Below are positions 8,191 to 38,246 of a stretch of 38,246 nucleotides of DNA, one piece after another. The stretch's first letter is position 1; every line of letters begins with the position of its first letter. This DNA is from a virus. The stretch is from the IMG/VR virus record IMGVR_UViG_3300034030_000018, positions 1-38,246 of that record; one strand, 5' to 3'. A program made the position numbers and the translations under genes. The notes beneath the pieces were generated by a model, which was given only the letters and a program-made list of their open reading frames with translations, did not search any database and was not told the origin of the DNA.

Positions 8191-8588
8191 GTGGAATCCA
8201 CACCTATGGAAACCATCTGTCCGGCTGGCTTGCTATGAGTTGGTCCGGCCTGAGCTGGCTATGTTCTGGCTGGCCACGCCGTAGCCAGCCACAATAGAGC
8301 CGGCTTAGAACCTGCGGGTGCCTCAGATTCTGTGGGAGGGTCTAAATTCTCAACTTTCACCCAACTCTTACATAACCACGCCTCGTTTCATACGTTAGAC
8401 GTACCCGCGATAAGTCATTCACCCGACAGCATCCCTTCGGGAATGCGAAACCGTCCGGGATACAGAGGGGTTCGCGACGTGAACCGGTTCGCCAGACGGA
8501 CGGGCCTCTCCAGAAACTACCGGAGGTACTTCCAGTACCGGGGGTACCTTGGGTACCCTAAGGTAGTCTTAGGTGGTAGGAGGAAACG

Positions 8589-9119
8589 ATGGGCATAGGC
8601 GATAAGATCAAGGCCGGAAGAAGAAATGAGGCCCGCGAGGAGAGTGAGAAGCGTCTGGCTCTAGAGCGCGCAATAAAAAACCACCCCGATAGGGAGATGT
8701 CCCGCCGAATCATTCCTGTCATTGAACCAATCCTCCGTGAATTGGCAGGCACGGCCAATTTGATTTTCGTCCGCGACACCACCATGGCCTATGGGACCTA
8801 CGGCGGAGAGGGGACGCCGCTCATCGCATACCTGTTTTATGAGAAGCTGGGCTCGTGGATTTTTGCCAAAAAGGGGATGTGCGTCGGCTACATCAGAATC
8901 GGCACGTTGGCGGGTAAGGATAATGTGACGACGCTGCGCGTGGTGCCGTTGAGTGTTAGGGTGCCTGGAGGTGGTAGGTACCGAATGATTTCTCACGATA
9001 AAGACTATGAGATATCGGAAATACCCGAAAGTCCAGGACAGATGAAGGAGTGGCTGGAAAAAGAGATGCTCATCTTCTATAACGGGATGAAGAGCGTGAA
9101 CCCCAGGCAAGTGCGCTGA
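8589..9119 (+). CDS. Hypothetical protein, 176 aa
   Basis: I do not recognise this protein. The start is firm: GGAGG lies 6-7 bases upstream of the ATG. The first 45 residues are highly charged (KIKAGRRNEAREESEKRLALERAIKNHPDREMSRR) and likely helical. Residues 45-150 alternate short helices and strands with aromatic residues (LIAYLFYEKLGSWIFAKKGMCVGYIRIG), suggesting a small alpha/beta domain. The tail has a PRQVR end and an amphipathic helix (MKEWLEKEMLIFYNGMK). No signal peptide or membrane span. GC content is lower than in the structural genes. It stands alone between the repeat-rich region and the convergent toxin gene. Confidence 0.7.
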   Translation: MGIGDKIKAGRRNEAREESEKRLALERAIKNHPDREMSRRIIPVIEPILRELAGTANLIFVRDTTMAYGTYGGEGTPLIAYLFYEKLGSWIFAKKGMCVGYIRIGTLAGKDNVTTLRVVPLSVRVPGGGRYRMISHDKDYEISEIPESPGQMKEWLEKEMLIFYNGMKSVNPRQVR

Positions 9120-9269
9120 CGCTGACAGCCCAAGCGCGCCCAATTATGGTCTATAGACGGGCCCGTGCTTATTAACACGCACCCGCCCCCTTTGCTCTCG
9201 GCACTAGCGGTAGTTGAAGCGCGGGCAGACGGGGAAGCGCGGCGAACTCACTTAATGACCGACTTATTA

Positions 9270-9518
9270 TTAATAATGATACCTGCACATTAAGAAGTCT
9301 ATGCGGGTATCTCTAACCAGATAGACTAACCTATGTTCTTGCGTCAGACGCCTTGACCACGCGTCTGACGCAAAATATTTTAGTGGCTCAGGTTTCCCTA
9401 TACCCACGAAGGGGTCTTTCCTAATAGCTTCCACCATTTCGAGTACCCGTTTAGCGGTACGTCTATCTGCCTCCACCCAATACTGTAAGTCTTCTATAAA
9501 CTCTGACTGAAAGACCAT
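9270..9518 (-). CDS. yoeB: YoeB/Txe-family toxin (mRNA endonuclease)
   Basis: An 82-residue protein, matching the usual 84-residue length of YoeB. The signature is plain: FVGIGKPEPLKYF, then WSRRLTQEHRLVYLV, and the invariant C-terminal CRYHY, which holds the catalytic histidine and tyrosine region. YoeB binds the ribosome and cleaves mRNA in the A site. The ATG at 9518 is chosen because it gives the family length. A longer frame from 9629 would overlap the antitoxin and read through a 19-bp hairpin. Only a weak AGAGAG precedes the ATG. The antitoxin gene lies immediately upstream on the same strand. Confidence 0.88.
   Translation of the reverse strand: MVFQSEFIEDLQYWVEADRRTAKRVLEMVEAIRKDPFVGIGKPEPLKYFASDAWSRRLTQEHRLVYLVRDTRIDFLMCRYHY
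9339..9373. repeat. 13-bp perfect inverted repeat inside the toxin gene
   Basis: TTGCGTCAGACGC at 9339-9351 is the reverse complement of 9361-9373, with a 9-bp loop. It encodes the DAWSRRLTQ stretch of the toxin active region. The core GCGTCAGA is shared with the six repeats upstream of the AAA ATPase gene (20963-21181). Confidence 0.8.
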
Positions 9519-9524
9519 CTCTCT

Positions 9525-9568
9525 AGCAACAGGGCGGTGCGACTTGCCGGTCGCACCGCCCTGTTGCT
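9525..9568 (-). promoter_or_regulatory. 19-bp perfect hairpin in the antitoxin-toxin leader
   Basis: The arms 9525-9543 and 9550-9568 pair perfectly over 19 bp with a 6-nt loop (TTGCCG on the plus strand). The structure fills most of the 70-nt gap between the antitoxin stop (9589) and the toxin ATG (9518), ending seven bases before the start codon. There is no U-tract, so a terminator is unlikely. Expected effect is to lower toxin translation or to hold a processing site, which would keep antitoxin in excess. Confidence 0.75.
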
Positions 9569-9588
9569 TAGCCCCTTGTTTGTTCTTC

Positions 9589-9873
9589 TTACTCTTCGCC
9601 AAGACCCACCTCGTCGCGCAGTTCGTCAATACTCAGCGGGGCTCCCTCCTCCGCACGAGCCTTCTTGAGCGCAGACAGTAAGCGGGCAGCGTTCTTAGGC
9701 GAACGCAACAGATGAGCGGTCTCCATGAGGCCGGACAACTCGTCCGCCGAAATTAAGACTACGTCGTTGCCACCACGGCGAGTAATGCGCACTATATCAC
9801 GATCTGCCGCGACCTTTTGGCACAGCTCTGATAAGTGAGCGCGTGCGTGGGTGTAAGTCGTTTCTACTACCAT
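9589..9873 (-). CDS. yefM: YefM/Phd-family antitoxin
   Basis: A 94-residue protein: VVETTYTHARAHLSELCQKV, then DIVRITRRGGNDVVLISADELSGLMETAHLLRSPKN, the typical Phd/YefM N-terminal DNA-binding and dimer domain. It is followed by an acidic, probably disordered C-terminus (EEGAPLSIDELRDEVGLGEE) that would wrap the toxin. The start at 9873 is chosen over the upstream in-frame codons because GGAGGTG lies 6 bases before it. Antitoxins of this family neutralise the partner toxin and autorepress the operon, and two promoter-operator units lie directly upstream. Confidence 0.88.
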   Translation of the reverse strand: MVVETTYTHARAHLSELCQKVAADRDIVRITRRGGNDVVLISADELSGLMETAHLLRSPKNAARLLSALKKARAEEGAPLSIDELRDEVGLGEE

Positions 9874-9905
9874 TGACTTCACCTCCATCAAGCTAGTATG
9901 CGCAG

Positions 9906-9975
9906 ACTGTACAGGAACCCTGTACAAGTGTCAACAATAGATGTACAGCATCCCTGTACAGTTGTCAATAAACAT
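9906..9975 (-). promoter_or_regulatory. Tandem promoter-operators of the toxin-antitoxin operon
   Basis: Two adjacent 34-bp units (9908-9941 and 9942-9975) each contain a pair of TGTACA sites (9908, 9921; 9942, 9955) and a minus-strand -35 TTGACA (9929-9934; 9963-9968). Each -35 is followed after exactly 17 bp by a -10-like hexamer (TACAGT at 9906-9911; TACATC at 9940-9945). The TGTACA palindromes lie in the spacers, so a bound antitoxin would block polymerase. TGTACA cores are typical of YefM operators. Confidence 0.8.
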
Positions 9976-10401
9976 TGTTTATTTCTTTAGCTATTTGCCT
10001 CAAACCCTCTATATCTGCCTGAAAAATGCCTTAAATGAGGGATTGAGACGCGGCCGGCGCGGGGCAATCTGTTCACTGTTCATTTCCACCGGCTTCCTTC
10101 GCTATCAACTCCTCTTCCGGGTTCGGCGCCGGAGGTTCTTCACGCCGGGTCGCTGACAACATTAGACTTACGCCCCACTGACGAATTTTCGGCACGCACG
10201 TCTCCCCTTCCAAACTTCGCGCAAAATCGCCCCAGGTTGAATCCGGCCGGGTGCGGGGGGTGAAGCCTAGCGCCTGCGCCAGCGTGGCGCGCGTGGCATA
10301 GGTCAGAGGGGCGCGGCCCCACCCGAGTTGGAACAAGTTGGAACCGAAAAAAAGCGACGGCGAGCGCCTGCGTTGACACCTAAAAAAGGTGCGCGGGTTC
10401 A

Positions 10402-10474
10402 CTGATAAACAGAGAAGTAACAGAGAACTCCCGGGCGGGTCGCGTTCCCTGATAAGCAGGGAAAGAACAGGGAA
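10402..10474. repeat. Imperfect 26-bp direct repeat, 47-bp offset
   Basis: Positions 10402-10427 and 10449-10474 match at about 21 of 26 positions (shared CTGATAARCAGRGAA followed by AACAGRGAA). The second copy also forms a small hairpin (TTCCCTG...CAGGGAA). The purpose is unknown. Similar repeats often mark recombination or protein-binding sites. Confidence 0.6.
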
Positions 10475-10475
10475 A

Positions 10476-10510
10476 GGGGCGCGGCTAACGTGTCACCGCC
10501 GCCGCGCCCC
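10476..10510 (-). terminator. Probable intrinsic terminator of the secreted-protein gene
   Basis: GGGGCGCGGC (10476-10485) pairs perfectly with 10501-10510, with a 15-nt loop. On the minus strand the stem is followed by a short TTTCCC, which is a weak T-tract. It lies 21 bp downstream of the stop of the 10532-10957 gene. Confidence 0.6.
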
Positions 10511-10531
10511 TAAGCACCGCGGTCACACGTG

Positions 10532-10957
10532 TCACGAACAGTAGATGGACATGTCTACGTACGCGCCTTCGACGGCTTCGGCGGTACTCGACCCGTAGAT
10601 ATACAGGGATTCGGAGCGAGGACCAGACCCGCACCACCACATCGACCCAGACACATGGAAGTAGTTGTTCACGATGCCCATGTACGTGCCGGGGCCGCCC
10701 GCGTCGTAATTGTAGACGCCGCACCAGTCCGCGTACGCGATCCCGTGGAAGGTCCACGAACTGCCGTTCCACTTGTAGATGGTGATGTCAGGGCTGACGA
10801 CCATGCCTGAGGAGGAACCGAAGTAGAAGACATGGCCCGACAACTGGTAGCCGCTCGCCAGGGCCGGGGCAGGGGGCATGACCAGCGTCAGGCAGGCGAG
10901 TAGTGCGATGAGGGTTAAGGGTCGGCGGACGAGACGCCGGGTGTAATGGTTAAGCAT
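10532..10957 (-). CDS. Small secreted protein with Sec signal peptide
   Basis: A 141-residue protein of unknown function. The start at 10957 is set by AAGGAG 6-7 bases upstream, although an in-frame ATG lies five codons earlier. Residues 1-36 form a classical signal peptide: positive TRRLVRRP, hydrophobic LTLIALLACLTLVMPP, and a likely AxA cleavage after ALA. The mature part is rich in Tyr, Ser, Gly and Trp with four cysteines (DWCGVYNYDAGG, WWCGSG, SIYCS end) and looks like a small beta-sandwich exported to the periplasm or outside. It has its own promoter, closely matching that of the other secreted-protein gene at 19696-20019, and its own terminator. This suggests a moron expressed from the resident genome. 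Confidence 0.75.
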   Translation of the reverse strand: MLNHYTRRLVRRPLTLIALLACLTLVMPPAPALASGYQLSGHVFYFGSSSGMVVSPDITIYKWNGSSWTFHGIAYADWCGVYNYDAGGPGTYMGIVNNYFHVSGSMWWCGSGPRSESLYIYGSSTAEAVEGAYVDMSIYCS

Positions 10958-11031
10958 GATGTTCTCCTTCATTGTGAGTAGCCTAGAGCCGTTGAGGTTG
11001 AGGGGCCGCGGGCGCAACAGGTAACGCGGGA

Positions 11032-11061
11032 ACGATACGCCCGGCGCGGCGAGGGTGTCAA
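11032..11061 (-). promoter_or_regulatory. Promoter of the first secreted-protein gene
   Basis: On the minus strand TTGACA (11056-11061) is followed after 18 bp by TATCGT (11032-11037). The GCCGGGCGTATCGTTCC block around the -10 is identical to that at 20093-20121 upstream of the other secreted-protein gene. That second site has a 17-bp spacer. Confidence 0.7.
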
Positions 11062-11126
11062 CGACTAAAAGAGAAAGGGCGGCGGAGTTTCGGCCGGCGT
11101 GAGTTTCGGTAAACCGCTGACCAAAA

Positions 11127-11456
11127 CTAGCTATGCTCAATCCGGTGGCAATTGAGGCAGAGCAGGCAGACCGCGAAGCGCCCCGCCCTCGGGTTCTCTT
11201 CCCTCACTACCCACTCAGACAGACTCATCCTGCGCGCGTCCAGCGCGACGGCGTGCAGCCGGCCGTTGCCGTGCCTGTGATGTATTTCCAGCGTGGCGGG
11301 GTGTGACTGGCCGCAGCGTTCGCACGCCCCGCCGAGCTTGGCGAGTGCCCGGGCCCGGCGCGCGCGGCGGCGCAAGCCCGTTGAGATGCGAAGCTCGGCG
11401 GGGCGCGAGCAGAAGACCGCGCGCACGCCAAGGTTGACGATCGCGGGGGCGCTCAC
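11127..11456 (-). CDS. HNH endonuclease-like protein
   Basis: A 109-residue protein starting at GTG 11456, which overlaps the previous stop (GTGA) and has AAGGGGG upstream. The C-terminal half carries an HNH fold signature: GACERCGQSHP (zinc CxxC), TLEIHHRHGNGRLH (catalytic HH), and CLLCLNCHRIEHS (second CxxC and final His). The N-terminal part (VSAPAIVNLGVRAVFCSRPAELRISTG) is unlike the family and may bind DNA. It is the last gene of the minus-strand operon. It could be a free-standing homing-type nuclease or a packaging-linked HNH. The 170-bp gap to the next minus-strand gene holds that gene's promoter. Confidence 0.75.
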   Translation of the reverse strand: MSAPAIVNLGVRAVFCSRPAELRISTGLRRRARRARALAKLGGACERCGQSHPATLEIHHRHGNGRLHAVALDARRMSLSEWVVREENPRAGRFAVCLLCLNCHRIEHS

Positions 11457-11653
11457 GGTCGCGCCCCCTTCCGCCGGGGGTGTCGCCGGCCGTGCCTCGT
11501 GTTGCGATGGGGGAGGGGCCGCGGGCGCCCCTCCCTTCTCTGTTCCTGTTCCATCTCGGCGACGAAGGCCGCCCACTCCTCGCGCCCCAGCTCGCCCCAC
11601 ACGTCCGCGTCGGGCTCGGCGACGCCGGCGGCTACTGCCGCGCCGCCCTTCAT
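11453..11653 (-). CDS. Hypothetical small protein, 66 aa
   Basis: Begins MKGGAAVAAGVAEPDADVWGELGREEWAAFVAEMEQEQ and ends in a very basic tail (REGRPRPLPHRNTRHGRRHPRRKGARP). The acidic first half and basic second half suggest a helical, nucleic-acid-touching adaptor, but I do not recognise it. The ATG at 11653 follows the repeated AAGGGGGTGAG ribosome-binding block used by four genes of this operon. It overlaps the upstream S24 gene by 4 bp (ATGA) and the downstream HNH gene by 4 bp (GTGA). Confidence 0.6.
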   Translation of the reverse strand: MKGGAAVAAGVAEPDADVWGELGREEWAAFVAEMEQEQRREGRPRPLPHRNTRHGRRHPRRKGARP

Positions 11654-11943
11654 CGCTCACCCCCTTTCTCTATCCGCACCACGCGGCCGAGGATGACGAC
11701 CGCGCCGGGCGCGAAGTATTCCGGCGCGTAGTCGCCGAGAGGGTCGCGCGTCAGGCGTATGTCGCCGGCCCTCGTTCTGCGGTAGCGCCTGACGACCAGC
11801 TCGCCCCACGACATGAAGGCCGCGCAGGACTCGCCCTCCGCAGGCGTCGCGTGTAGTTCAATCACGGCGATGTCGCCGGGGTTCATCCCCGCGCCCGTCA
11901 TGCTGTCGTCCGAGAGGCGGACTCTGCCGAATGTGTCGTTCAT
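11650..11943 (-). CDS. Stand-alone S24 (LexA/UmuD-like) domain protein, catalytic Lys apparently replaced by Arg
   Basis: A 97-residue protein made only of the S24 peptidase fold. RLSDDSMTGAGMNPGDIAVIE (from residue 9) matches the LexA/UmuD SM-xxxG-xGD motif, with Ser14 as nucleophile. The partner lysine should lie about 37-39 residues later in a VKR context, but here the sequence is GELVVRRYRR (Arg52/Arg53). No helix-turn-helix is attached. If the Lys is really missing, self-cleavage should be lost and the protein could act as an antagonist or co-factor of host LexA/UmuD-type proteins or a dimer partner. An alternative is that a nearby residue substitutes. Member of the minus-strand early operon. 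Confidence 0.72.
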   Translation of the reverse strand: MNDTFGRVRLSDDSMTGAGMNPGDIAVIELHATPAEGESCAAFMSWGELVVRRYRRTRAGDIRLTRDPLGDYAPEYFAPGAVVILGRVVRIEKGGER

Positions 11944-12482
11944 CGCTCACCCCCTCCCGCCGTCGGGTCGTAAAGCTCCTTCGGCTGGTCGTCCCTCATG
12001 TGCCAGTGACCGACCTTGCGGAGCATCGCGGGCAACTTCCGGCGGATGCGGGCGGCCGTGACGCTGCGCCCCTCGCCAAACCCGAAAGCGTAGTCAGGCG
12101 TTCCCGGTATCGGCTCGGCGGCGAAGCAATCCACGGTCACGGCGACGTGCTGCAACAGCTCGCGCAGGACGGGCGGCGTCTCGGGCGCTTCGAGCAGGAC
12201 GGCGAGGCGTTCGGCCGTGACCGTCTCGGGACGCTTCTCCCGCACCTTGAGGCCGTGCCGCGTGGCGGCTATCAACCGGGCGAGCGCCGCCACGTCAATA
12301 CCGTCTGCGGTCAACTTCACGACCTCAATTCCGGTCGCCTCCTCGGCCGCCCACAACTCACGCGCCGCGCCGTCGGTGATGTAGTCGGGAACGTCGCCGC
12401 TGTCGAGAAACAGGGCGAGGAGGCGAGCCCCCTGCCTGTCGTGCTTCGTGGGGCGCTCGGTGGCCTTGCGTGACTTCGGCAT
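11940..12482 (-). CDS. Hypothetical protein, 180 aa
   Basis: I do not recognise this protein with confidence. The start at ATG 12482 overlaps the previous stop (TGATG) and has the operon's GGGGGTGAG block upstream. The first 25 residues are basic (PKSRKATERPTKHDRQ), followed by a helical domain (GARLLALFLDSGDVPDYITDGAARELWAAEEATGIEVVKL). The C-terminal part, GRSVTAARIRRKLPAMLRKVGHWHMRDDQPKELYD, has the feel of a winged-helix tail such as those at the ends of DUF3631 primase/helicase-like proteins. Overlaps at both ends imply coupled expression with the S24 protein and the duplicated protein. Confidence 0.6.
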   Translation of the reverse strand: MPKSRKATERPTKHDRQGARLLALFLDSGDVPDYITDGAARELWAAEEATGIEVVKLTADGIDVAALARLIAATRHGLKVREKRPETVTAERLAVLLEAPETPPVLRELLQHVAVTVDCFAAEPIPGTPDYAFGFGEGRSVTAARIRRKLPAMLRKVGHWHMRDDQPKELYDPTAGGGER

Positions 12483-15373: not shown

Positions 15374-16093
15374 ATGGACGAAGAGACAATCCAGAAGCTT
15401 GCTAGTGAAGCAGTAGCAATATTCCTATCGGATTGGAAAGACACGCCCGAGACGCAGGTGGTTGAGCGCAACGGTAATAACTTCTTAATTGTGAAACCGG
15501 TGTTGGAAAGACGTAACCTTTTTAGCGGCATTACACTTCAATTCAACTTGGAAGATAAATGTAGATATGACTTAAGGCAGTATTTTCCCGGTAGCTCTAA
15601 CGAAGAAGAGCAGGAGGCTGTATCCCACCTTGATCCTGAAAACTTCACCCGTCAGCGATTACCAAAAGAGTTAGCCCGTATGGCTATAACTGCAACGCAA
15701 CTTCTGCCTTTTTTTCTTGAGATTTTGGATATTGCAGCACTTCATCGGCGCATGGAGGCTCTACTTGGGCCATTATCTCATGGCCCACAGGCAGAGATTT
15801 CAGAAATAGCTCGTGAGTTAACTCAACTTATGCTTAGGTCACAGGGTTTTATAACCAAGGAGGAACCAAAGCCAGGCCCATCACGTGCCATTGATGACAG
15901 AAACGCAGTAGAAGCCTTACTCCGAATCGGGAGTACATCCCCTTCTCGCCGTCAATTAGCAAAAGAATTGAACACCACACCGTCCACTGTGCGCAGCTGG
16001 CTTCGTATGAAGGGATTCACCTCACCGGAAGAGTTGATGGATGATTTTTTAAAGCGAATACGGGAGGCACGTGGGGTTATAGATGAGGGGTAG
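15374..16093 (+). CDS. Hypothetical protein with C-terminal helix-turn-helix
   Basis: A 239-residue protein starting at ATG 15374 (GGAG upstream). The N-terminal 150 residues are unknown, with a hydrophobic helix LARMAITATQLLPFFLEILDIAALHRRM. Residues about 190-230 form a helix-turn-helix: RNAVEALLRIGSTSPSRRQLA, then KELNTTPSTVRSWLRMKGF, with a recognition helix TPSTVRSWLRM. GC content is clearly lower than in most genes here, suggesting recent acquisition. Its TAG stop lies inside the left arm of the large palindrome at 16089-16170, so that structure may be both its terminator and its operator. Confidence 0.68.
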   Translation: MDEETIQKLASEAVAIFLSDWKDTPETQVVERNGNNFLIVKPVLERRNLFSGITLQFNLEDKCRYDLRQYFPGSSNEEEQEAVSHLDPENFTRQRLPKELARMAITATQLLPFFLEILDIAALHRRMEALLGPLSHGPQAEISEIARELTQLMLRSQGFITKEEPKPGPSRAIDDRNAVEALLRIGSTSPSRRQLAKELNTTPSTVRSWLRMKGFTSPEELMDDFLKRIREARGVIDEG

Positions 16094-16170
16094 AAATCAG
16101 GCCCTAATTCTACCCTGGTAGAAATTAATGAGTAATGCTACCAGGGTAGAATTAGGGCCTGATTTCTACC
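16089..16170. repeat. Perfect 33-bp inverted repeat with 16-bp spacer
   Basis: Positions 16089-16121 and 16138-16170 are exact reverse complements. Each arm is itself made of smaller palindromes (TACCCTGGTA and AATTAGGGCCTGATT-type units), so the same 5-8 bp blocks recur at least four times. A short ATTTTTA follows at about 16182. Possible roles: terminator, multi-site operator or replication-fork/plasmid site. A hairpin-telomere site seems unlikely because no protelomerase was recognised. Confidence 0.9.
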
Positions 16171-16291: not shown

Positions 16292-16601
16292 ATTTCCACA
16301 GGGTCGTGAGCGACATTTATGGATAATCTTTGCAAATGTTTAGCTCACTATTAGAGCATAGCTATTTTCAACATATTTGCGGCGCGTAAACTACTGATGC
16401 CTGTGGAAATGTGGAAAACTTTTTCTTCAAGTTTCTTTCCACGAAAACACAAAGTTTTCCACAGCATTTTTCACGGCCGTTGTGGAAAACAATCCTATTG
16501 TTCACAACACTTAGGAAGCATTTCCACATTTCCACAGGCACTACTACTACTACTTGATATAGAGATAAGGTATTAAGGTATTGTAACTAGGTATTGTAAC
16601 T
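16292..16601. other. Candidate replication origin: DnaA-box-like cluster, inverted repeats and 13-bp iterons
   Basis: Seven sites match WTTTCCACA or its complement: 16292-16300, 16402-16410, 16410-16418, 16455-16463, 16481-16489, 16520-16528 and 16528-16536. Three (16410, 16455, 16481) are TTTTCCACA, which fits the DnaA consensus TTWTNCACA. Two doublets form a perfect 20-bp inverted repeat (16398-16417 / 16521-16540), and the inner pair forms a 10-bp one (16454-16463 / 16481-16490). The stretch is far more AT-rich than the genome. It ends in two tandem copies of AGGTATTGTAACT (16576-16588, 16589-16601). The zinc-finger and primase-polymerase genes follow. Confidence 0.72.
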
Positions 16602-16919: not shown

Positions 16920-17180
16920 ATGGACAACGCACAAAATTACGTCGAGGCATTCGGCACACGCTTTACTCGATCCGTCTGCGGGTACTGCGGCCTTCCCTGT
17001 GTCTACCTGGGAGAGGCCATCCGCATTGACTTCGTTGAAGGCGGCTTCCAAATCCTCCACGTCTGCCTCCCCTGCCGACGGCACCTGCGTTTACATCTCC
17101 AGAGCTTACCGGACGCTGAGGCGCGCGGGCGCCACCTCGAAGAGGTGCGCGGACGGCGGGAAAGGAGACGTGCAGCGTAA
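16920..17180 (+). CDS. Small zinc-finger-like protein upstream of the primase
   Basis: An 86-residue protein from ATG 16920. It contains two CxxC pairs separated by about 27 residues, SVCGYCGLPCVYLGE and ILHVCLPCRRH, which would hold one zinc ion in a ribbon. A long basic helix follows (RGRHLEEVRGRRERRRAA). Its TAA overlaps the ATG of the primase gene (TAATG at 17178-17182), so the two are coupled and may form one complex. The zinc ribbon could supply the template-binding function that classical primases carry in cis. Longer in-frame starts exist upstream but have no ribosome site either. Confidence 0.65.
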   Translation: MDNAQNYVEAFGTRFTRSVCGYCGLPCVYLGEAIRIDFVEGGFQILHVCLPCRRHLRLHLQSLPDAEARGRHLEEVRGRRERRRAA

Positions 17181-19093
17181 TGGCTCAGCCCGCCACGACC
17201 TTCACAAAGCAGGACGCGAAGAGGGACCGCCAGGCTTACCAGCGGCTCGCCGGCATCGTAGACCGCCTCCTGCACCGTGACATACAACGCCTCGACGAGG
17301 AGACGGCGCGGAAGTTCTTCAAGTCGTCGGTCTTCGCCACCATCCACAGCCTGCACGGGTTCCTGAACGGCCGCGAGGTCTCGCACGACAAGCCGGTGAT
17401 GAAGGCTCACAAGTTCGTCATCGAGCACTTCGGTTACCGCGGCGACCGCGAGAACGACCAGGCCGTCGCGCGCTTCATGGCGCGCCACCTCACGGGTCTG
17501 GCGGACGCGGAGAGAGCCGTCGGGCACCGCTACGTCACCGTCCGCCGCGCCGACAACCAGACCCAGCTCTTTACCAGCTACGAGGGCACGCCGCTGCTCG
17601 ACGCGGCCGAGTGGGTCTACTTCATGGCGCGGCAGAAGCCCGACTATTGGAAGAACCCGGCGGCGGCCGTGACGGACGACCTGCTCGACGCCGCGCTCGC
17701 TAAACTGCCCGAGGTCAAAGCGAAGGTAGACGAGCCCACGCCGTGCGGGCACCCGGTCGAGTCGGGCGAGTGCGACGAGTGTGTGCCTAAGACCTTCTGC
17801 GGGCACCCTTCGGGGTCGGGTCAGTGCGAAGAGTGCGAGAAGTGGGAGGCGGGCGACCTGATGAACGATTCAGTCGTCAAGGGCATGTGGACGAAGATAA
17901 TCAACGCCGCCGAGCGGGCGTTGGTCAAGGAGTTCGATTCCGGCGCTGACCCGGAGCTGGCCGCCGCCAAGCACGCCGCTAAGATTATCGAGATAGGCAA
18001 GCACATTAAGCAGAAGCTCGCCCGCGAGCGGCTCCGGGCGGCCATGATGCCTGCGCGGCCGCATGACGAGAAGGACGAGGATAAGAGAACAGCGCACAGT
18101 GGTAAAGAAAGTGTTACCTCAAACGAGGGGGGTACCCCTGACAAAAATGTCAGGGTACCCGATGGTTATGTAGTTGAACCGGTTGAAGTTAGCGAAGCGC
18201 CCGCAGAGGATTTGCCCGAGATTCAGCGGAACGCGCTCCAGTATGCCCGGGCGGGTATTTCGGTCCTCCCGCTGTGGGGAGTCTGCGACGGGATTTGTGA
18301 TTGCCCGTCGGGGTCAGAGTGCCGGACGGCCGGGAAGCACCCGCACAGCCAGCTCGCCCGGAACGGCGTCTACTCGGCTACGACCGACGAGCAGGCCATA
18401 CGGGGGTGGTTCAAGAAAGACCCGCGCATCAACCTGGGGGTTGCGATGGGCGGCGCCCTCAACCTCATCTGCGTGGACATAGACCCGCGCAACGACGGCG
18501 ACGCCTCGTATTCAGATTTGATAGACGCCCACGGCGAAGACGCCTTTCCCGAGACGTTCACCGTGAAGACCGGCGGGGGCGGCTGGCACCGCTATTACAG
18601 GCTCCCCTACACCATCAAAGCCGAAAAGGGCGAGTTGAAAGGCAAGCTCGGCCCCGGCATCGACATTAAAGGAGCGGGCGGCCAGATCGTCGCGCCCGGC
18701 TCAGTTCATTCAAGCGGCGCTCTCTATCAGGTCGAAACTAACGTCTATATCGAGGAAGCCCCGGGGTGGATGGTAACCGTTCTGCTCAAGTCGGCGTCCG
18801 GCGAGAGGCCCGAGGTTGTCGTTGACTTTCAGGCGCACAGTGACCGGAAGCGCGCGGGGATGGGCGGCTTAATAATCGTCGAGGGCGAGCGCAACGAAAG
18901 GCTCTTTAAGGTCGGGTGCGCGCTGTGGGGCAAGGGCGAAGTGGGGAGCCGCGGGGAGTTGTTACAGCGCCTCTCCGAAGTGAACCTCGAAAGGGTGTCG
19001 CCCCCGCTCGACTCGGATGAAGTTTGGAAGATTGCAGAGGGCATATCGAGCCGCTACCCGCTCGGCGTGCCGATAAAGGAAGGCACCGGATGA
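17180..19093 (+). CDS. Primase-polymerase (D5/AEP-type PrimPol) replication protein
   Basis: A 637-residue protein. The C-terminal part is a bifunctional primase/polymerase domain, about residues 350-540: ALQYARAGISVLPLW, TAGKHPHSQLARNGVYSATT, metal-binding LICVDIDPRNDGD (DxD), TGGGGWHRYYRLP, and GIDIKGAGGQIVAPGSVH. Residues 565-635 resemble a PriCT domain (GERNERLFKVGCALWGKG to EVWKIAEGISSRYP). No helicase motifs follow, so it relies on a host helicase or another protein. Residues 1-200 are a separate helical domain. Two similar Cys/His blocks at about 193-220 (CGHPVESGECDEC, CGHPSGSGQCEEC) look like small zinc knuckles. An AT-richer linker with a hairpin (18130-18160) separates the halves. 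Confidence 0.88.
   Translation: MAQPATTFTKQDAKRDRQAYQRLAGIVDRLLHRDIQRLDEETARKFFKSSVFATIHSLHGFLNGREVSHDKPVMKAHKFVIEHFGYRGDRENDQAVARFMARHLTGLADAERAVGHRYVTVRRADNQTQLFTSYEGTPLLDAAEWVYFMARQKPDYWKNPAAAVTDDLLDAALAKLPEVKAKVDEPTPCGHPVESGECDECVPKTFCGHPSGSGQCEECEKWEAGDLMNDSVVKGMWTKIINAAERALVKEFDSGADPELAAAKHAAKIIEIGKHIKQKLARERLRAAMMPARPHDEKDEDKRTAHSGKESVTSNEGGTPDKNVRVPDGYVVEPVEVSEAPAEDLPEIQRNALQYARAGISVLPLWGVCDGICDCPSGSECRTAGKHPHSQLARNGVYSATTDEQAIRGWFKKDPRINLGVAMGGALNLICVDIDPRNDGDASYSDLIDAHGEDAFPETFTVKTGGGGWHRYYRLPYTIKAEKGELKGKLGPGIDIKGAGGQIVAPGSVHSSGALYQVETNVYIEEAPGWMVTVLLKSASGERPEVVVDFQAHSDRKRAGMGGLIIVEGERNERLFKVGCALWGKGEVGSRGELLQRLSEVNLERVSPPLDSDEVWKIAEGISSRYPLGVPIKEGTG
18130..18160. repeat. Hairpin inside the primase linker
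   Basis: GGGTACCCCTGACA (18130-18143) and TGTCAGGGTACCC (18148-18160) pair with a single bulged C and a 4-nt A loop. It falls exactly in the flexible linker, where codon composition also shifts. Confidence 0.75.
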
Positions 19094-19362: not shown

Positions 19363-19393
19363 AACCGAGCGTTCACCAAGTCAGTACAAGGTG

Positions 19394-19435
19394 TACCGCC
19401 GGACGGTATACCGCCGGACGGCATACCGCGGCAGG
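19394..19435. repeat. 15-bp tandem repeat TACCGCCGGACGG
   Basis: TACCGCCGGACGGTA (19394-19408), TACCGCCGGACGGCA (19409-19423) and a degenerate third unit starting TACCGCGGCAGG. The stretch 19363-19639 holds no gene; besides this it contains small inverted repeats (a 7-bp stem near 19547-19565, and GGTGACAC/GTGTCACC at about 19582-19615). Confidence 0.7.
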
Positions 19436-19695: not shown

Positions 19696-20019
19696 CTAGG
19701 GACAGTAGAACAGGTCGGAGTAGGTGTCGGTCTCGCCGTTGGCGTCCATGACGGTCACGGAGATGGTCCTGCTGATGCCGGAACATCCGACGCGCAGTGA
19801 CTGCCCGCTCCCAGTAATCGGCGACGGCCCCCACGCATAGGTGTAAGGGGCCGTGCCCCCGTACACCTCGGCCGTACAGCGCAGTTGATCGTAGGGCAAG
19901 CCTATACAGTCTATACTGACGATTGGGCCTGTCCGGGCCTCGACAGGTTTGACCGGGGCGGCCAGCGGCGCGAGGGCGACGAATGCGAGGGCGAGCGCCA
20001 GAATCAGTTTATAACGCAT
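19696..20019 (-). CDS. Small secreted Ig/PKD-like protein with signal peptide
   Basis: A 107-residue protein from ATG 20019 with AAGGAG 9 bases upstream. Signal peptide: MRYKLILALALAFVALAPLA, cleavage probably after VEA near residue 30. The mature part reads GPIVSIDCIGLPYDQLRCTAEVYGGTAPYTYAWGPSPITGSG, then RTISVTVMDANGETDTYSDLFYCP. The YGGTAPYTYAW and SVTVMDANGETD patterns are typical of PKD/Ig-like beta-sandwich repeats, and four cysteines may form disulfides. It is transcribed alone from a promoter nearly identical to that of the gene at 10532-10957 and has its own terminator. A cell-surface or periplasmic protein made during residence, perhaps altering adsorption or superinfection, is the likely role. 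Confidence 0.78.
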   Translation of the reverse strand: MRYKLILALALAFVALAPLAAPVKPVEARTGPIVSIDCIGLPYDQLRCTAEVYGGTAPYTYAWGPSPITGSGQSLRVGCSGISRTISVTVMDANGETDTYSDLFYCP

Positions 20020-20092
20020 GGTGAGTCTCCTTCGTGAAGCGGACATGAAACGAATGAGGTTGAGGGCTTCGTGCCTGAAAGGGAACGAAGGA

Positions 20093-20121
20093 ACGATACG
20101 CCCGGCGGGGATGGGTGTCAA
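20093..20121 (-). promoter_or_regulatory. Promoter of the second secreted-protein gene
   Basis: TTGACA (20116-20121), 17-bp spacer, TATCGT (20093-20098) on the minus strand. The block GCCGGGCGTATCGTTCC is shared with 11032-11061. Confidence 0.75.
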
Positions 20122-20221
20122 CGGTGAACTCTTCCCTCCCCGGCCGCCCACCTCTCTGCTACACTCCGCACTAAAGGCGACCGCAGCACGCGGCCGCTCA
20201 GTCTCAGGAAGGCGGGAAGGT

Positions 20222-20425
20222 ATGACCAGAACTTTAACGGCGACGATCTGGCGCGAGGAGGGCGGCTACGTCTCCCTCTGCCCCGAGCTCGACATCGCCT
20301 CCCAGGGCGACACGGTCGAAGAAGCCAGGGCGAACCTCCAGGAGGCTGTGGACCTCTTCTTCGAGGCGGCCGATCCTGCGGAGGTGGCCGAGCGTACTCA
20401 CGTTCTCACGCAGGGCGTTTCGTGA
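20222..20425 (+). CDS. HicB-like protein without a HicA partner
   Basis: A 67-residue protein with the HicB N-terminal domain: LTATIWREEGGYVSLCPELDIASQGDTVEEARANLQEAVDLFFEAA. The start at ATG 20222 is set by AGGAAGG upstream; the frame is open further up but non-conserved. HicB normally neutralises the small RNase HicA. I find no HicA-like ORF on either side, so it is an orphan. It may counter a host HicA or act as a regulator. It is divergent from the secreted-protein gene, with about 100 bp between the starts' promoters. Confidence 0.78.
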   Translation: MTRTLTATIWREEGGYVSLCPELDIASQGDTVEEARANLQEAVDLFFEAADPAEVAERTHVLTQGVS

Positions 20426-21560: not shown

Positions 21561-22418
21561 ATGAAGGCGTATAAGGTTTTTGGCCTTAAAGAGAACCCAT
21601 TCGTGCCTAGCCCGAACCCGCGGTTCCTCTACCTGACCGACCAGACGAACGCCTGCCTGTTCAAGTGCAAATTCGTCATCGAGGAGCGGCAGGGGCTCTC
21701 ACTCATCGTCGGGAAGATCGGTTACGGCAAGACTTCCGTGCTGCGGGAGCTACTCAACGGCTACATCGACGACGAGACGTACAAGATCGCGATGCTCCCG
21801 AACGGCAGCTTCCCTTCCGAGATGCAGCTCGCCAAGGCCATCTCCAGCGAGCTGGGGCTCCAGGGACGTCGCTCCCTACTGGCGCAAATAAACGAGATAC
21901 GTGACTACGCCTTCCAAATTTACGGCGAGGGCGGGACGATCATCCTGATTATTGATGAGGCGCAGAACCTGAAGGGCGCGCAGTTCGATTTTCTGCGGGA
22001 ATTGCTCAACTTCGAGAGCAACGAGGCGAAGACCATCCAGATCATCATCGCAGGCCAGCCCGAGATAGAGACCAAGCTGGCGACGAAGCCCGCGCTCGTC
22101 TCGCGCATCATCCTGACGAACTACCTCGACACCTTCACCTACGAGGACATGGTGGCCGCCCTGGAGCACCGGATACGCCTGGCCGGGGGTAAGCTAGACA
22201 TCATGGCCGACGACGCGCTGAAAGCCCTCTACGTGGCCTCACGGGGCGTCCCGCGCGAGATCATGAAGATAGCCAACGCTTCCCTTCTCCTCGCGGCCGT
22301 GAACCAGACGAGGCCGATTACCGACGACATCATCAAGCTGGCGGTCGAGAACATACTTTCTACGGAGCGCAATGGAGAACCGGAAGCCGCTGAACTTCGC
22401 GCAGGCGCTTCGCAGTAG
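21561..22418 (+). CDS. ExeA/TniB/MuB-like AAA+ ATPase
   Basis: A 285-residue protein. N-terminal FGLKENPFVPSPNPRFLYLTDQ is the entry motif of ExeA-like ATPases. Walker A is LIVGKIGYGKTSVLREL (residues about 50-60), Walker B is IILIIDEAQNLK (about 130), and sensor 1 is IQIIIAGQPE (about 160). The C-terminal lid (LKALYVASRGVPREIMKIANASLLLA) includes the sensor 2 arginine. Family members are DNA-stimulated ATPases used in transposition target choice, secretion and helicase loading. No transposase is nearby; instead the gene overlaps a DNA-binding-like gene packed with iterons. A helicase-loader or partition ATPase role is inferred. Promoter is leaderless. Confidence 0.85.
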   Translation: MKAYKVFGLKENPFVPSPNPRFLYLTDQTNACLFKCKFVIEERQGLSLIVGKIGYGKTSVLRELLNGYIDDETYKIAMLPNGSFPSEMQLAKAISSELGLQGRRSLLAQINEIRDYAFQIYGEGGTIILIIDEAQNLKGAQFDFLRELLNFESNEAKTIQIIIAGQPEIETKLATKPALVSRIILTNYLDTFTYEDMVAALEHRIRLAGGKLDIMADDALKALYVASRGVPREIMKIANASLLLAAVNQTRPITDDIIKLAVENILSTERNGEPEAAELRAGASQ

Positions 22419-23244
22419 GCCCGGAAAACCACCGGAGCCGGAGGCGGACGCCCAGCATCTCGAACCTGTGGACGCCCACATTGCCGCGGCGCGGACGCCC
22501 ACCCAAATAAATGTGGACGCCCAATTCACCGATTCAGTGGACACCCACACGGCAGAGATGCGGACGCCCACCTCGGTTGAAATAGGACGCCCACTTCAAC
22601 CTGAAATGGACGCCCGCACCCGAAACGTGGGCGCCAATGCGTCCACCAACTTACCCCCTGTGGACGCCAAAGCGCCCACATCACGAAGACGTGGACGCAC
22701 GAGTAAGAAGGGTGTGGCCGCCCACAAATCCGACAGGCACAGGACGGATTTGGTCCGGCAGCACTTCCGCATTCCGGCCGAGTTGGACGAGCAAATCAGA
22801 CTGTTTCGTGCGAAGAAGAATCTTGAGCTTCAGGAGTTTTACCAGCTCGCGGCCGCCCACTTAATGAGCAGTGTGGACGCCCACAAAGGCGAAGATGTGG
22901 ACGCATTGGCGCCCCTTGATGATAGAGATACGATGATACTATTTAGAACGGAGCCTAGTATCATCAACGTCTACCTGCAGTACAACCCTGAAAACCGGTG
23001 GAAACCGGCCGACGACTACGAGGGTCAGCGGTATAACGGGAAGGACATTCGCCTGGTCGAGATCGGGATAATCCAGACTCAATTTAACGCCCGGTTCAAG
23101 AAGGTCAACTCGTTCAAATACTACACGACCGAGATAGACGAGGCCCTGGCAATCCCGCTCTCGGAGGAGACCATCGAGATTATGCTCAAGCAGGGTCGGC
23201 GCAGGTGGGAAGCTGCTCGCGGGGCGTCAATAAAATCCTCTTAA
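22372..23244 (+). CDS. Putative initiator/partition DNA-binding protein with in-gene iterons
   Basis: A 290-residue protein, overlapping the ATPase gene by 47 bp. Residues 1-120 are low complexity with scattered VDAH/VDAQ/RTPT words that simply reflect the DNA repeat below. Residues about 122-165 look like a ribbon-helix-helix: HRTDLVRQHFRIPAELDEQIRLFRAKKNLELQEFYQLAAAHL. The C-terminal 100 residues (TMILFRTEPSIINVYLQYNPENRWKPADDYEGQRYNGKDIRLVEIGIIQ) are an unknown alpha/beta domain. The arrangement (ATPase, then DNA-binding protein with sites inside its own gene) parallels lambda O/ori and plasmid partition operons. No sure family; function inferred. Confidence 0.7.
   Translation: MENRKPLNFAQALRSRPGKPPEPEADAQHLEPVDAHIAAARTPTQINVDAQFTDSVDTHTAEMRTPTSVEIGRPLQPEMDARTRNVGANASTNLPPVDAKAPTSRRRGRTSKKGVAAHKSDRHRTDLVRQHFRIPAELDEQIRLFRAKKNLELQEFYQLAAAHLMSSVDAHKGEDVDALAPLDDRDTMILFRTEPSIINVYLQYNPENRWKPADDYEGQRYNGKDIRLVEIGIIQTQFNARFKKVNSFKYYTTEIDEALAIPLSEETIEIMLKQGRRRWEAARGASIKSS
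22446..22904. repeat. Iteron-like array, consensus GTGGACGCCCAC
   Basis: Full or near copies start at 22446 (partial), 22468, 22491, 22513, 22537, 22560, 22583, 22606, 22660 (partial), 22691 (partial), 22714, 22849, 22873 and 22897 (partial), plus an inverted GTGGGCGCC at 22627. Early spacings are about 22-24 bp, two helical turns. The copies at 22468, 22513 and 22537 are read as VDAH/VDAQ/VDTH, those at 22491 and 22560 as RTPT, and that at 22583 as GRPL. All three codon phases are used, so the DNA word rather than the peptide is conserved. Confidence 0.85.
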
Positions 23245-35886: not shown

Positions 35887-38246
35887 ATGGCGCGCACCCA
35901 ACAGGACATTCTCGTCAAAATCAAAGTCCTCCTCGAAGGGCTCGGGAATGTGCGCGCGCTCGCCGGACACGTCAAAGAGTTAAACGCGGGCGGGGGCCAG
36001 ACCGCCGCGCTCGCCGGAAACCTCGACCGCCTCTCGCTGGCCGTTGACCGCCTCGCGGCCGCCTCGGAGAAGGCGGGGAAGTCCCGCGGGGGCTTCGTGC
36101 GCTTCCTCGTCGGCGTCAACGCGGTCGTCGGCACGCTCGCCGCTCTCCCGCAAGCCTTCGCCGGGCTGGATAAGCTCCTGGACTTCTTCGACAACGTGGG
36201 CGGGGGCGTGGCCCAAGCCTTCGGGAAGGTGAAGGAGGCCGGCGCGTCCCTCTTCTCTTCACTCTCAGAGGCCGCCTCGGGGGTGGCGTCTCGGGCGGGC
36301 GCGGCCTTCTCGGGCTTAGGAAGCGCTGCGGGAGGTCTGGGCGCGGCGCTCGGCGCGGCTCTCCCCGCGGCGCTGGCTATCGGCGCGGCGCTCGCCGTCG
36401 TCATAGGCGTGCTGGCGGCGGCCTCCGCGGGCTTCCTCTCCCTCGCCGTCTCGGCCGGCGTGGGCGGGGCGGCGCTCCTCGCCATCGCGCAACGCGGGCT
36501 CGAAATCCAGCGACAACTCGAAGGCGTCCGGCTCGGGATTGCGGCGGTCATCACGTCGCTCGCCGACGTGAAGGTTGACGGCCTGCCCGTCGAGGGCGCG
36601 GAGAAGTTCCGCGCGGCGATGGCGCTCTCCGGCGAACAGTTGAAGAAGCTCCAGGTGGACGCCATCAACACGACGGCCACCTTCGGGCAGATTGCCCCGG
36701 CTTTTCAGGCCGCCATCGCGCCCGGCCTCGCCGCCGGCCTGACGCTCGACCAAATCCGCGCGACGACCGTGCGGATAGTGCAGGCGGCCTCCGCCATCGG
36801 CCTGCCGTTAGAGCAGGTCAATCAGGAAGTCCGCGCGATTCTCGAAGGCACGATTAACGAGGACGCCCGCCTCGCCAAAGTCCTCGGCATCTCTAACGAG
36901 ATGGTGAAGTCGTGGAAGGCGCAGGGGAAGCTCGCCGAGGAGTTGAACAAGCGCCTCGACGGGTTCGCGGTCGCCGGCGTAGAGGCCGCGCAGACGATGG
37001 ACGGGCTCGCCTCCAACATGCAGGAGGCTTTGGACGTCTTCTCTACGGAGGCCACCTCGCGCGCCTTCGGCGCCCTCAAGAGCGAGTTCGCCCGCCTGCT
37101 GCCTCAGTTGTTCGACTTCAAGGGCGCGGGGATACAGGCGCAGTTCAAGAGCCTGGCGAGCCTCGCCGACGACGTGCTGGTCAGGGTGGTCCGCATCGGC
37201 GGGGAGATAGCGCAGGACGTCCTCTCGGGGCTGCGCAGCGCCTCGGCGTTCGTCGAGCGGAACCGCGCGCAGATAACGGGGCTCCTGAATCAGTTGGGGC
37301 TCCTGCTGCGCACGCTCCTCCAAATCGTCGGGGTCTTCGCCCGGCTCGCCACCTCCTCGGCGACGTGGGGCAGCTCGCTCCAGGTCGTCCAGGGCGTCCT
37401 CGGGCTGATTAACGCCATCCTCATCACCATCCTCGACCAGTTCCGGCAGATGGCCCCCTACCTCCAGCTCGCCATCCTCGCCGCCAACCTCCTGCTTGCC
37501 TCGCAGCCCGGTTTCGCCGCGCTCGCGCGGGCGGGCACGCCGGGGGCGGGCGGGGCGAACCAGCAAGACCTCGACAACGAGACGCAGCGCCTCCGCGACA
37601 AGCAATCCGGCCGGCAGATAACCGCCGGGGCGATGCCTCGGGTCGGGGGTGGCGGCGGGAAGGGCGGCGGCGGCCGGCAGAGTCAGGTCAGGGAGCTTAC
37701 GCGCGCGCTCGAAGACGCGAGGATTGACACCGCGCTCGCGCGCCTTCAGGCCAAGTCCGACCTCATCAGGCAGAGCATAGAGGCGAGCGTCGAGGCGGTC
37801 AGGAACGGGCTCGAAGACTCCATCCTCTCCATCGGCGAAGCCTTCAGGCTTGAGGCCGCGCTCGCCGACAAGTTTCTGGCGGCCGAGCGCGAGCGCATCG
37901 AGGGGGAGATAAAGGCGGCCGAGGCGCGGCGCGACCTCGCCGTCAGGAACCTCGACAAAGACCTCTCGCCGCAGGAGCGCCGGCTCGCCATCGCGGCCGA
38001 GGACGAGAAGCTGGTGGCGCAGGTAGTGCGGCTCGAAGGGGAGCGCGACAGGCTCGTCCAGGAAACCCTCGACAAGAAGACCGCCCTGACCCGCGAGGAG
38101 GCGCGCGCCAGCGAGGAGCTTCAGGACACAATAGACGACATCGAGAATCAACTCGACGCGCTCTCCCGTTTCGGCTCCACGCGCGCTGAAGCCGCCGCGC
38201 GGGAGATTGAGGCGCGGTTCAGAGACACCCGCCTCCGCCTTGAGGC
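35887..38246 (+). CDS. Tape measure protein, N-terminal part (continues at position 2)
   Basis: ATG 35887 starts MARTQQDILVKIKVLLEGLG. The frame is open to the window end and resumes at base 2. Residues 1-70 are helical. About 150-200 are strongly hydrophobic (GAALPAALAIGAALAVVIGVLAAASAGFLSLAVSAGVGG), the membrane-insertion region common in tape measures. Residues 200-580 are helical, with another hydrophobic stretch (LNQLGLLLRTLLQIVGVFARL, then LQLAILAANLLLASQPG). A Gly-rich hinge lies near 585-598 (VGGGGGKGGGGRQ), then a long coiled coil (ELTRALEDARIDTALARLQAKSDLIRQ). No Shine-Dalgarno is visible. Start sequence MART-DI is also that of the protease-capsid gene. Confidence 0.88.
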   Translation, partial: MARTQQDILVKIKVLLEGLGNVRALAGHVKELNAGGGQTAALAGNLDRLSLAVDRLAAASEKAGKSRGGFVRFLVGVNAVVGTLAALPQAFAGLDKLLDFFDNVGGGVAQAFGKVKEAGASLFSSLSEAASGVASRAGAAFSGLGSAAGGLGAALGAALPAALAIGAALAVVIGVLAAASAGFLSLAVSAGVGGAALLAIAQRGLEIQRQLEGVRLGIAAVITSLADVKVDGLPVEGAEKFRAAMALSGEQLKKLQVDAINTTATFGQIAPAFQAAIAPGLAAGLTLDQIRATTVRIVQAASAIGLPLEQVNQEVRAILEGTINEDARLAKVLGISNEMVKSWKAQGKLAEELNKRLDGFAVAGVEAAQTMDGLASNMQEALDVFSTEATSRAFGALKSEFARLLPQLFDFKGAGIQAQFKSLASLADDVLVRVVRIGGEIAQDVLSGLRSASAFVERNRAQITGLLNQLGLLLRTLLQIVGVFARLATSSATWGSSLQVVQGVLGLINAILITILDQFRQMAPYLQLAILAANLLLASQPGFAALARAGTPGAGGANQQDLDNETQRLRDKQSGRQITAGAMPRVGGGGGKGGGGRQSQVRELTRALEDARIDTALARLQAKSDLIRQSIEASVEAVRNGLEDSILSIGEAFRLEAALADKFLAAERERIEGEIKAAEARRDLAVRNLDKDLSPQERRLAIAAEDEKLVAQVVRLEGERDRLVQETLDKKTALTREEARASEELQDTIDDIENQLDALSRFGSTRAEAAAREIEARFRDTRLRLE
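38130..38246. repeat. Terminal direct repeat (right copy)
   Basis: Same 117 bp as positions 1-117 with A at 38140 and 38147 where the left copy has C. It marks the artificial ends of a circular sequence. Confidence 0.93.

Follow-up and report, generated by a model that had tools for sequence, protein, structure and literature searches.

Both in-gene replication origins and joint swaps of iterons with DNA-binding domains have been described before (lambda O, pSK41, PLE RepA). At the lambda origin, iterons with hyphenated dyad symmetry occupy the central part of the O gene; an AT-rich unwinding region adjoins them, and a partner gene lies beside (PMC7466680, PMC6022878). Rep of plasmid pSK41 is built of a DNA-binding N-terminal domain, a linker that is encoded by the origin and dispensable as protein, and a conserved C-terminal domain, so that the origin lies in the middle of rep (PMC5703833). 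In repABC plasmids a ParA-family gene (RepA) is located upstream, and repC contains the origin together with an A+T-rich region (PMC3155836). For RepA of the PLE satellite (ICP1/Vibrio cholerae) it has been documented that the DNA-binding domain and the iterons are exchanged as a pair, with the C-terminus retained (PMC8263062).

The window, that is the whole stretch of 38,246 bases analysed here, encodes phage terminase, portal, capsid, tail, tape-measure and Prim-Pol proteins. Its first and last 117 bases (1-117 and 38130-38246) align without gaps at a score implying two mismatches, and this end overlap, together with a tape-measure reading frame that runs across the join, indicates a circular genome of about 38.1 kb. 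One of its genes carries a dense array of short repeats (Table 1), and eleven related viral contigs (G001-G011; loci L001-L004, L007, L095, L110, L115, L116, L118 and L119) carry an array gene in the same slot directly behind an ATPase gene. On the sequence evidence presented below, we consider it likely that the phage replicates from an origin inside the gene of its own initiator, that the repeats are the iterons of this origin, and that the host helicase is recruited with the ATPase.

The locus shares with lambda O/P the in-gene iterons, the adjacent AT-rich block and the neighbouring partner gene, and same-slot relatives match O-like families. Unlike lambda with its four sites and Stx phages with their six, the window has about 12 degenerate sites in two clusters that flank the DNA-binding domain, its protein has no recognisable O domain, and the partner is an upstream AAA_22 ATPase or ParA rather than a downstream P. 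The domain plan resembles that of RepA_N proteins (pSK41 rep), and a fold comparison of the winged-helix relatives with the PDB lists plasmid Rep domains first, but no RepA_N Pfam match was obtained here and the arrays flank the DNA-binding domain on both sides. As in repABC plasmids, ParA lies upstream of the origin-containing initiator gene in G006, G008 and G009; unlike there, no ParB is situated between the genes, no RepC family match was found, and repC of p42d is without iterons. With PLE RepA the locus has in common that domain and word change jointly and that the C-terminus is retained, whereas the PLE origin is intergenic and no partner ATPase has been described for PLE.

Table 1. Coordinates of the candidate origin and its neighbouring genes in the window.
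Feature	Coordinates	Strand	Basis
Prim-Pol primase gene	17180..19093	+	PF09250 1.9e-35
AAA_22 (ExeA/TniB/MuB-like) AAA+ ATPase gene	21561..22418	+	PF13401 4.7e-21; TIGR03015 3.4e-41 (below that model's cut-off); phrog_296 1.1e-24
Putative replication initiator gene (array gene)	22372..23244	+	domain-wise conservation; O-like replacement in G004 beside a 97%-identical ATPase
Iteron cluster 1	22444..22730	+	GTGGACGCCCAC, imperfect dyad 10/12, ~23-bp spacing
Putative DNA-binding domain code, repeat-free	22731..22848	+	amino acid identity 0.90 but codon identity 0.43 to G001
Iteron cluster 2	22849..22911	+	repeat matches, codon identity
AT-rich block, putative DNA unwinding element	22912..22974	+	contains the gene's AT-richest 50 bp (64% AT; top 1% genome-wide)
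C-terminal domain	22975..23244	+	amino acid identity 0.85-0.87 to G002/G003, while the DNA-binding domain changes

On the plus strand of the array gene, 12 sites spanning positions 22444-22884 match GTGGACGCCCAC at no more than two mismatches (starts at 22444, 22468, 22491, 22513, 22537, 22560, 22583, 22606, 22660, 22714, 22849 and 22873). Two of them are exact (22468 and 22873) and seven have at most one mismatch. The array of the initial annotation is thus real, but its "about 14" copies are reached only when more degenerate half-sites are included, for example GTGGACGCA at 22897. Successive copies lie 24, 23, 22, 24, 23, 23, 23, 54, 54, 135 and 24 bp apart, which agrees with the recurrence of about 23 bp noted there, the 22-24 bp spacing running across the first eight copies. 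All three reading frames are used, as had likewise been claimed, but unevenly, with nine copies in frame 0 (VDAH-like), two in frame 2 (RTPT) and one in frame 1 (GRPL). Cluster 1 also holds forms of the type GTGGACGC-N4-GCGYCCAC. The window as a whole contains 28 matches to GTGGACGCCCAC, compared to 5.9 +/- 2.6 in dinucleotide shuffles, with none of 100 shuffles reaching 28, and no other repeat in the genome is as dense as the array (8-mer count of 9, compared to 7 for the runner-up, an unrelated intergenic cluster, and a mean of 3.15 elsewhere).

A codon-shuffled null, suggested in the initial annotation as a control, was exceeded in both of its forms: codon-order shuffling of the gene yielded 0.15 copies (maximum 2) and synonymous-codon shuffling 5.0 copies (maximum 9 among 2000 shuffles), as against the 12 observed. 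Peptide repetition therefore accounts for part, but not for the whole, of the array. That a VDAH-like linker was selected as protein and the DNA repeat is its by-product appears highly improbable to us. Nine of the 12 copies do lie in frame 0 and synonymous shuffles still retain five on average, but the observed number surpasses every one of these shuffles, the copies are found in three phases and, in G001, also on the opposite strand, and synonymous sites are under stronger constraint in the array than in the code of the DNA-binding domain. Moreover, relatives with diverged proteins lose the peptide words yet retain a DNA array, which is the opposite of the pattern that the initial annotation had named as refuting.

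That selection acts on the DNA, as proposed from the single sequence, is supported by the synonymous conservation of the array and the AT block and by the replacement of the word as a unit in relatives. Where residues are unchanged between the window and G001, codon identity amounts to 81% in array 1, 94% in array 2 and 94% in the AT block, while the codons of the DNA-binding domain have drifted to only 43% and those of the C-terminus to 62%. The excess of synonymous conservation in arrays and AT block over the rest is pronounced for window-G001 (Fisher p 7e-6) and G001-G007 (4e-6) and weaker for window-G007 (0.04); for the AT block alone it is evident between G001 and G002 (4e-4). Codon identity of the AT block to the window is 0.94 in G001, 0.94 in G002, 0.93 in G003 and 0.73 in G007, and in the group of relatives with winged-helix proteins the block reaches 0.73 vs 0.42-0.54 elsewhere. 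In the window the block folds at z -2.3 and contains a 9-bp inverted repeat (GATGATACT at 22932-22940 and AGTATCATC at 22957-22965) that is kept in G001-G003 and, with 8 bp, in G007. The arrays sit on both sides of the DNA-binding-domain code with the AT block after the last cluster. Array, DNA-level constraint and AT block were all obtained by computation, as was their order, iterons first and AT block behind, which recurs in the 12 elements: the most AT-rich 50 bp of every one of the 12 genes lies just past the last repeat cluster and within the top 0-1.4% of its own genome.

An in-gene repeat array is present in 12 of 12 elements, with top 8-mer counts of 6-10 that each exceed the maximum of 200 synonymous-codon shuffles. 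The weakest case is G006, since its top 8-mers are low-complexity CCCCACC runs and, with two-letter words excluded, its best count is only 4 and not above the rest of the contig. The word GTGGACGCCCAC is used by the window, G001 and G007, and GTGGATAGCC by G002 and G003, followed by CCGATAGCCTACCGG in G004, CCCCTCTACAGG in G005, CACCTCAGGTCACC in G006, GCCCCCCGCAG in G008, GGTACTACC at 18-bp spacing in G009, GGGACAGAGGGG in G010 and TACTCTAGTAC in G011. Most of these words, which were chosen by eye, are near-dyads, the exceptions being those of G008 and G010. Phage and plasmid record collections contained no relative of the array proteins tested.

Computationally, word and DNA-binding domain are replaced jointly. 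The DNA-binding domain of G001 is 90% identical to that of the window at the amino acid level and the word is shared; the same word is found in G007, a different phage whose ATPase is only 38% identical and whose DNA-binding domain is 69% identical. In G002/G003 the DNA-binding domain has fallen to 41% identity and a new word is used, despite C-terminal domains that are 85-87% and ATPases that are 96% identical to those of the window. In G004 the ATPase is retained (97%). Its array gene starts with ~115 bp of the old type, in which old-word copies still occur, and then changes over to a winged-helix protein with a new word, a switch that looks like a recombination inside the array. At the 5' end of the G004 gene (L004 10812-10920), which now uses another word, the relic old-word copies read GTGGACGCC.

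The product of the array gene comprises a conserved N-terminal tag, a repeat-encoded linker, the DNA-binding domain, a second linker and the conserved C-terminal domain; for the protein, the stretches encoded by iterons are probably no more than linkers. The earlier description as a ribbon-helix-helix-like protein was not confirmed. The resemblance of the DNA-binding domain to this fold was seen by eye only, Pfam and NCBIfam gave no match for the window protein, not even to a ribbon-helix-helix Pfam family at E 10, and its AlphaFold model has a pLDDT of 41; with no family match and a poor model, the assignment stays an impression. A sequence search found no solved structure for the window protein, and its C-terminal domain, a putative replisome or ATPase contact, showed no sequence relation to any solved structure or family searched. 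PF04492/TIGR01610 (O N-terminal winged-helix domain) did not match the window protein, PF06970 (RepA_N) did not match the proteins of the window and G001-G005, and no RepC family Pfam match was obtained for the array proteins.

The likeness to lambda O, first noted from the window alone, gains strong support from the architecture and from the winged-helix relatives, whose proteins occupy the same slot and have O-like and Rep-like matches. The array protein of G004, a lambda-O-like winged-helix protein, matches phrog_678 ('replication initiation O-like', 5e-9) and, below cut-off, Phage_rep_O (PF04492, 3.7e-5). That of G011 matches TIGR01610 phage_O_Nterm (1.2e-4) and PF04492 Phage_rep_O (1.9e-4), both below cut-off. 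The model of the winged-helix group displays a fairly confident winged helix (blocks within residues 91-160 at mean pLDDT 70-89). In the PDB it matches initiator domains of plasmid Rep proteins first (4pql, 5kbj and 4pt7; E 3.5e-3 and worse) and, lower down, the centromere-binding protein of pNOB8; its BFVD matches include a 'Replisome organizer' (1.8e-6) and lambda-O-domain proteins. Within this group, identity is 18% in the repeat-coded linkers, 39% in the winged helix and 68-70% in the C-terminal parts. A profile comparison of the window type with the winged-helix type of array protein revealed no relation.

The upstream neighbour was correctly recognised in the initial annotation as an overlapping, ExeA-like AAA ATPase gene: PF13401 and TIGR03015 place it in AAA_22/ExeA, and the overlap with the array gene is 47 bp. 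The ATPase is 96-97% identical in four related contigs, where structural proteins are mostly 53-86% identical, and it is the most conserved protein common to these phages, above terminase, portal and capsid. A scan of genome contigs with the ATPase alignment yielded nothing but generic ExeA-like ATPases, at most 38% identical, from Omnitrophota, Opitutae, Desulfuromonadales and others. Matches to helicase loaders were weak and of Orc1/Cdc6- and DnaI-like type, with no direct match. Further matches were to PF05621, and the distant ones were to B proteins of Mu-like phages. Together with phrog_296, these matches would agree with a MuB/TniB-like transposition module in which the ATPase would select the target and the repeats would be sites for a transposase, but the array is inside a gene rather than at element ends and the genome is circular with packaging genes, which makes such a module extremely improbable. 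Mu-type transposition was rejected, as an rve-type (DDE) transposase was looked for and found in none of the 12 records.

Of the two comparisons drawn in the initial annotation, lambda O or a plasmid partition site, the former fits the layout, and the latter is retained as the main, though rather unlikely, alternative because three of the 12 elements pair the array protein with ParA. The array would then be a centromere (parS-like), the product of the array gene a centromere-binding protein, and the AAA+ MuB/ExeA-type ATPase a ParA-like motor segregating an extrachromosomal prophage. ParA occupies the ATPase slot directly upstream in G006, G008 and G009, the AAA+ ATPase is present in nine of the 12 elements, and the two types are mutually exclusive; the window ATPase itself belongs to AAA_22 and is not ParA-type (deviant Walker A). 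Centromere-binding proteins commonly have a ribbon-helix-helix or winged-helix fold, and a circular genome in which neither a tyrosine nor a serine integrase was found makes a plasmid-like prophage possible. The order of an ATPase gene and the gene of a repeat-associated protein is also that of ParA systems with centromere-binding proteins of these folds, from which the locus differs by the AAA+ ATPase in most elements including the window, the AT-rich block and the initiator-like relatives. Partition is further opposed by the matches of same-slot proteins to replication initiators and by the conserved AT-rich block, for which a centromere has no need. In addition, the window shows no recognisable lysogeny genes, and integrases are encoded by G008, G009 and G011.

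The ParA in the ATPase slot of three relatives fits partition better than helicase loading, and in this respect it counts against an origin. Either these elements replicate without a loader of their own and the ATPase has another task, for example segregation or control, or two element classes have solved different problems beside the same initiator. We regard it as unlikely that the in-gene array is both origin and centromere, with the ExeA/MuB-type AAA+ ATPase as a partition motor replacing ParA. If so, a MuB-like ATPase standing in for ParA would be a segregation machine not described in anything we found.

A very unlikely function of the array is that of an operator or incompatibility site, the protein mainly repressing its own operon or limiting copy number. 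The gene does contain many putative binding sites and belongs to an overlapping operon, and iterons often control copy number as well. However, all 12 elements have the array inside the gene, behind the start of the operon, and autorepression needs neither an AT-rich constrained block nor about 12 sites. Operator and origin roles are not mutually exclusive.

For an origin inside the initiator gene, which we favour, the following course can be envisaged. The DNA-binding domain of the array-gene product would bind the dyad-like GTGGACGCCCAC sites on either side of the stretch that encodes it, and the bound complex would strain the adjacent AT-rich block so that it opens. The upstream AAA+ ATPase and the conserved C-terminal domain would bring in the host replicative helicase in the manner of lambda P and O, and priming would fall to the phage Prim-Pol. 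A DnaB-type helicase was looked for in all 12 records and none was found, so that a host helicase is probably recruited, and the AAA+ ATPase probably helps to load it. The Prim-Pol gene, which is present in G003 too and, diverged, in G004, possibly belongs to the same replication machinery as the array gene, and the Prim-Pol protein could itself be the initiator. Further points that weigh against an origin are that the window protein matches no initiator family and that the loader-like matches of the ATPase are weak. Cumulative GC skew was uninformative, with no clear turning point at 22 kb.

As far as our searches of the open-licence literature show, this type of initiator is new, as are the two clusters flanking the domain code, an AAA_22 partner that can be exchanged for ParA, and a series of twelve that includes an intermediate. 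In-gene origins have so far been known singly (lambda O, pSK41 rep, repC); here DNA-binding domain and origin word have been jointly rewritten beside a nearly fixed ATPase (96-97%), and G004 is a half-rewritten intermediate. The series would provide natural matched lock-and-key pairs of repeat word and DNA-binding part. It makes directly testable how an initiator and its origin shift specificity without losing function, and what role an ExeA/MuB-like AAA+ ATPase plays in replication or segregation, given that ParA is able to replace it. We further suggest a route to the origins of uncultured phages, in which genes adjoining an ATPase gene are screened for a repeat array that exceeds synonymous shuffles and has an AT-rich block at its side.

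Another candidate origin, a TGTGGAAA cluster at 16293-16529, was rejected: such a cluster is absent from all 11 relatives, including G003 with the same flanks, and is thus not the conserved element. Positions 16293-16529 contain seven TGTGGAWA/TWTCCACA words (DnaA-box-like) in an AT-rich intergenic stretch, accompanied by long inverted repeats (16398-16417 and 16521-16540, a perfect 20 nt). A perfect 33-nt inverted repeat with a 16-nt loop is located at 16089-16170, and a similar hairpin occupies the matching place in G003, where several bases differ, possibly in a compensating manner. Downstream of the Prim-Pol gene, GGTATACCGCCGGAC is repeated in tandem in 2.7 copies (19390-19429), and positions 20018-20425 encode a weak HicB-like antitoxin-type domain. 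G007 carries portal-, capsid- and terminase-like genes (by eye), and directly behind its module two TraD/VirD4-like P-loop ATPases, likewise recognised by eye, are encoded (L110 5608-7923, corresponding to G007 8332-10647, and 10878-12065).
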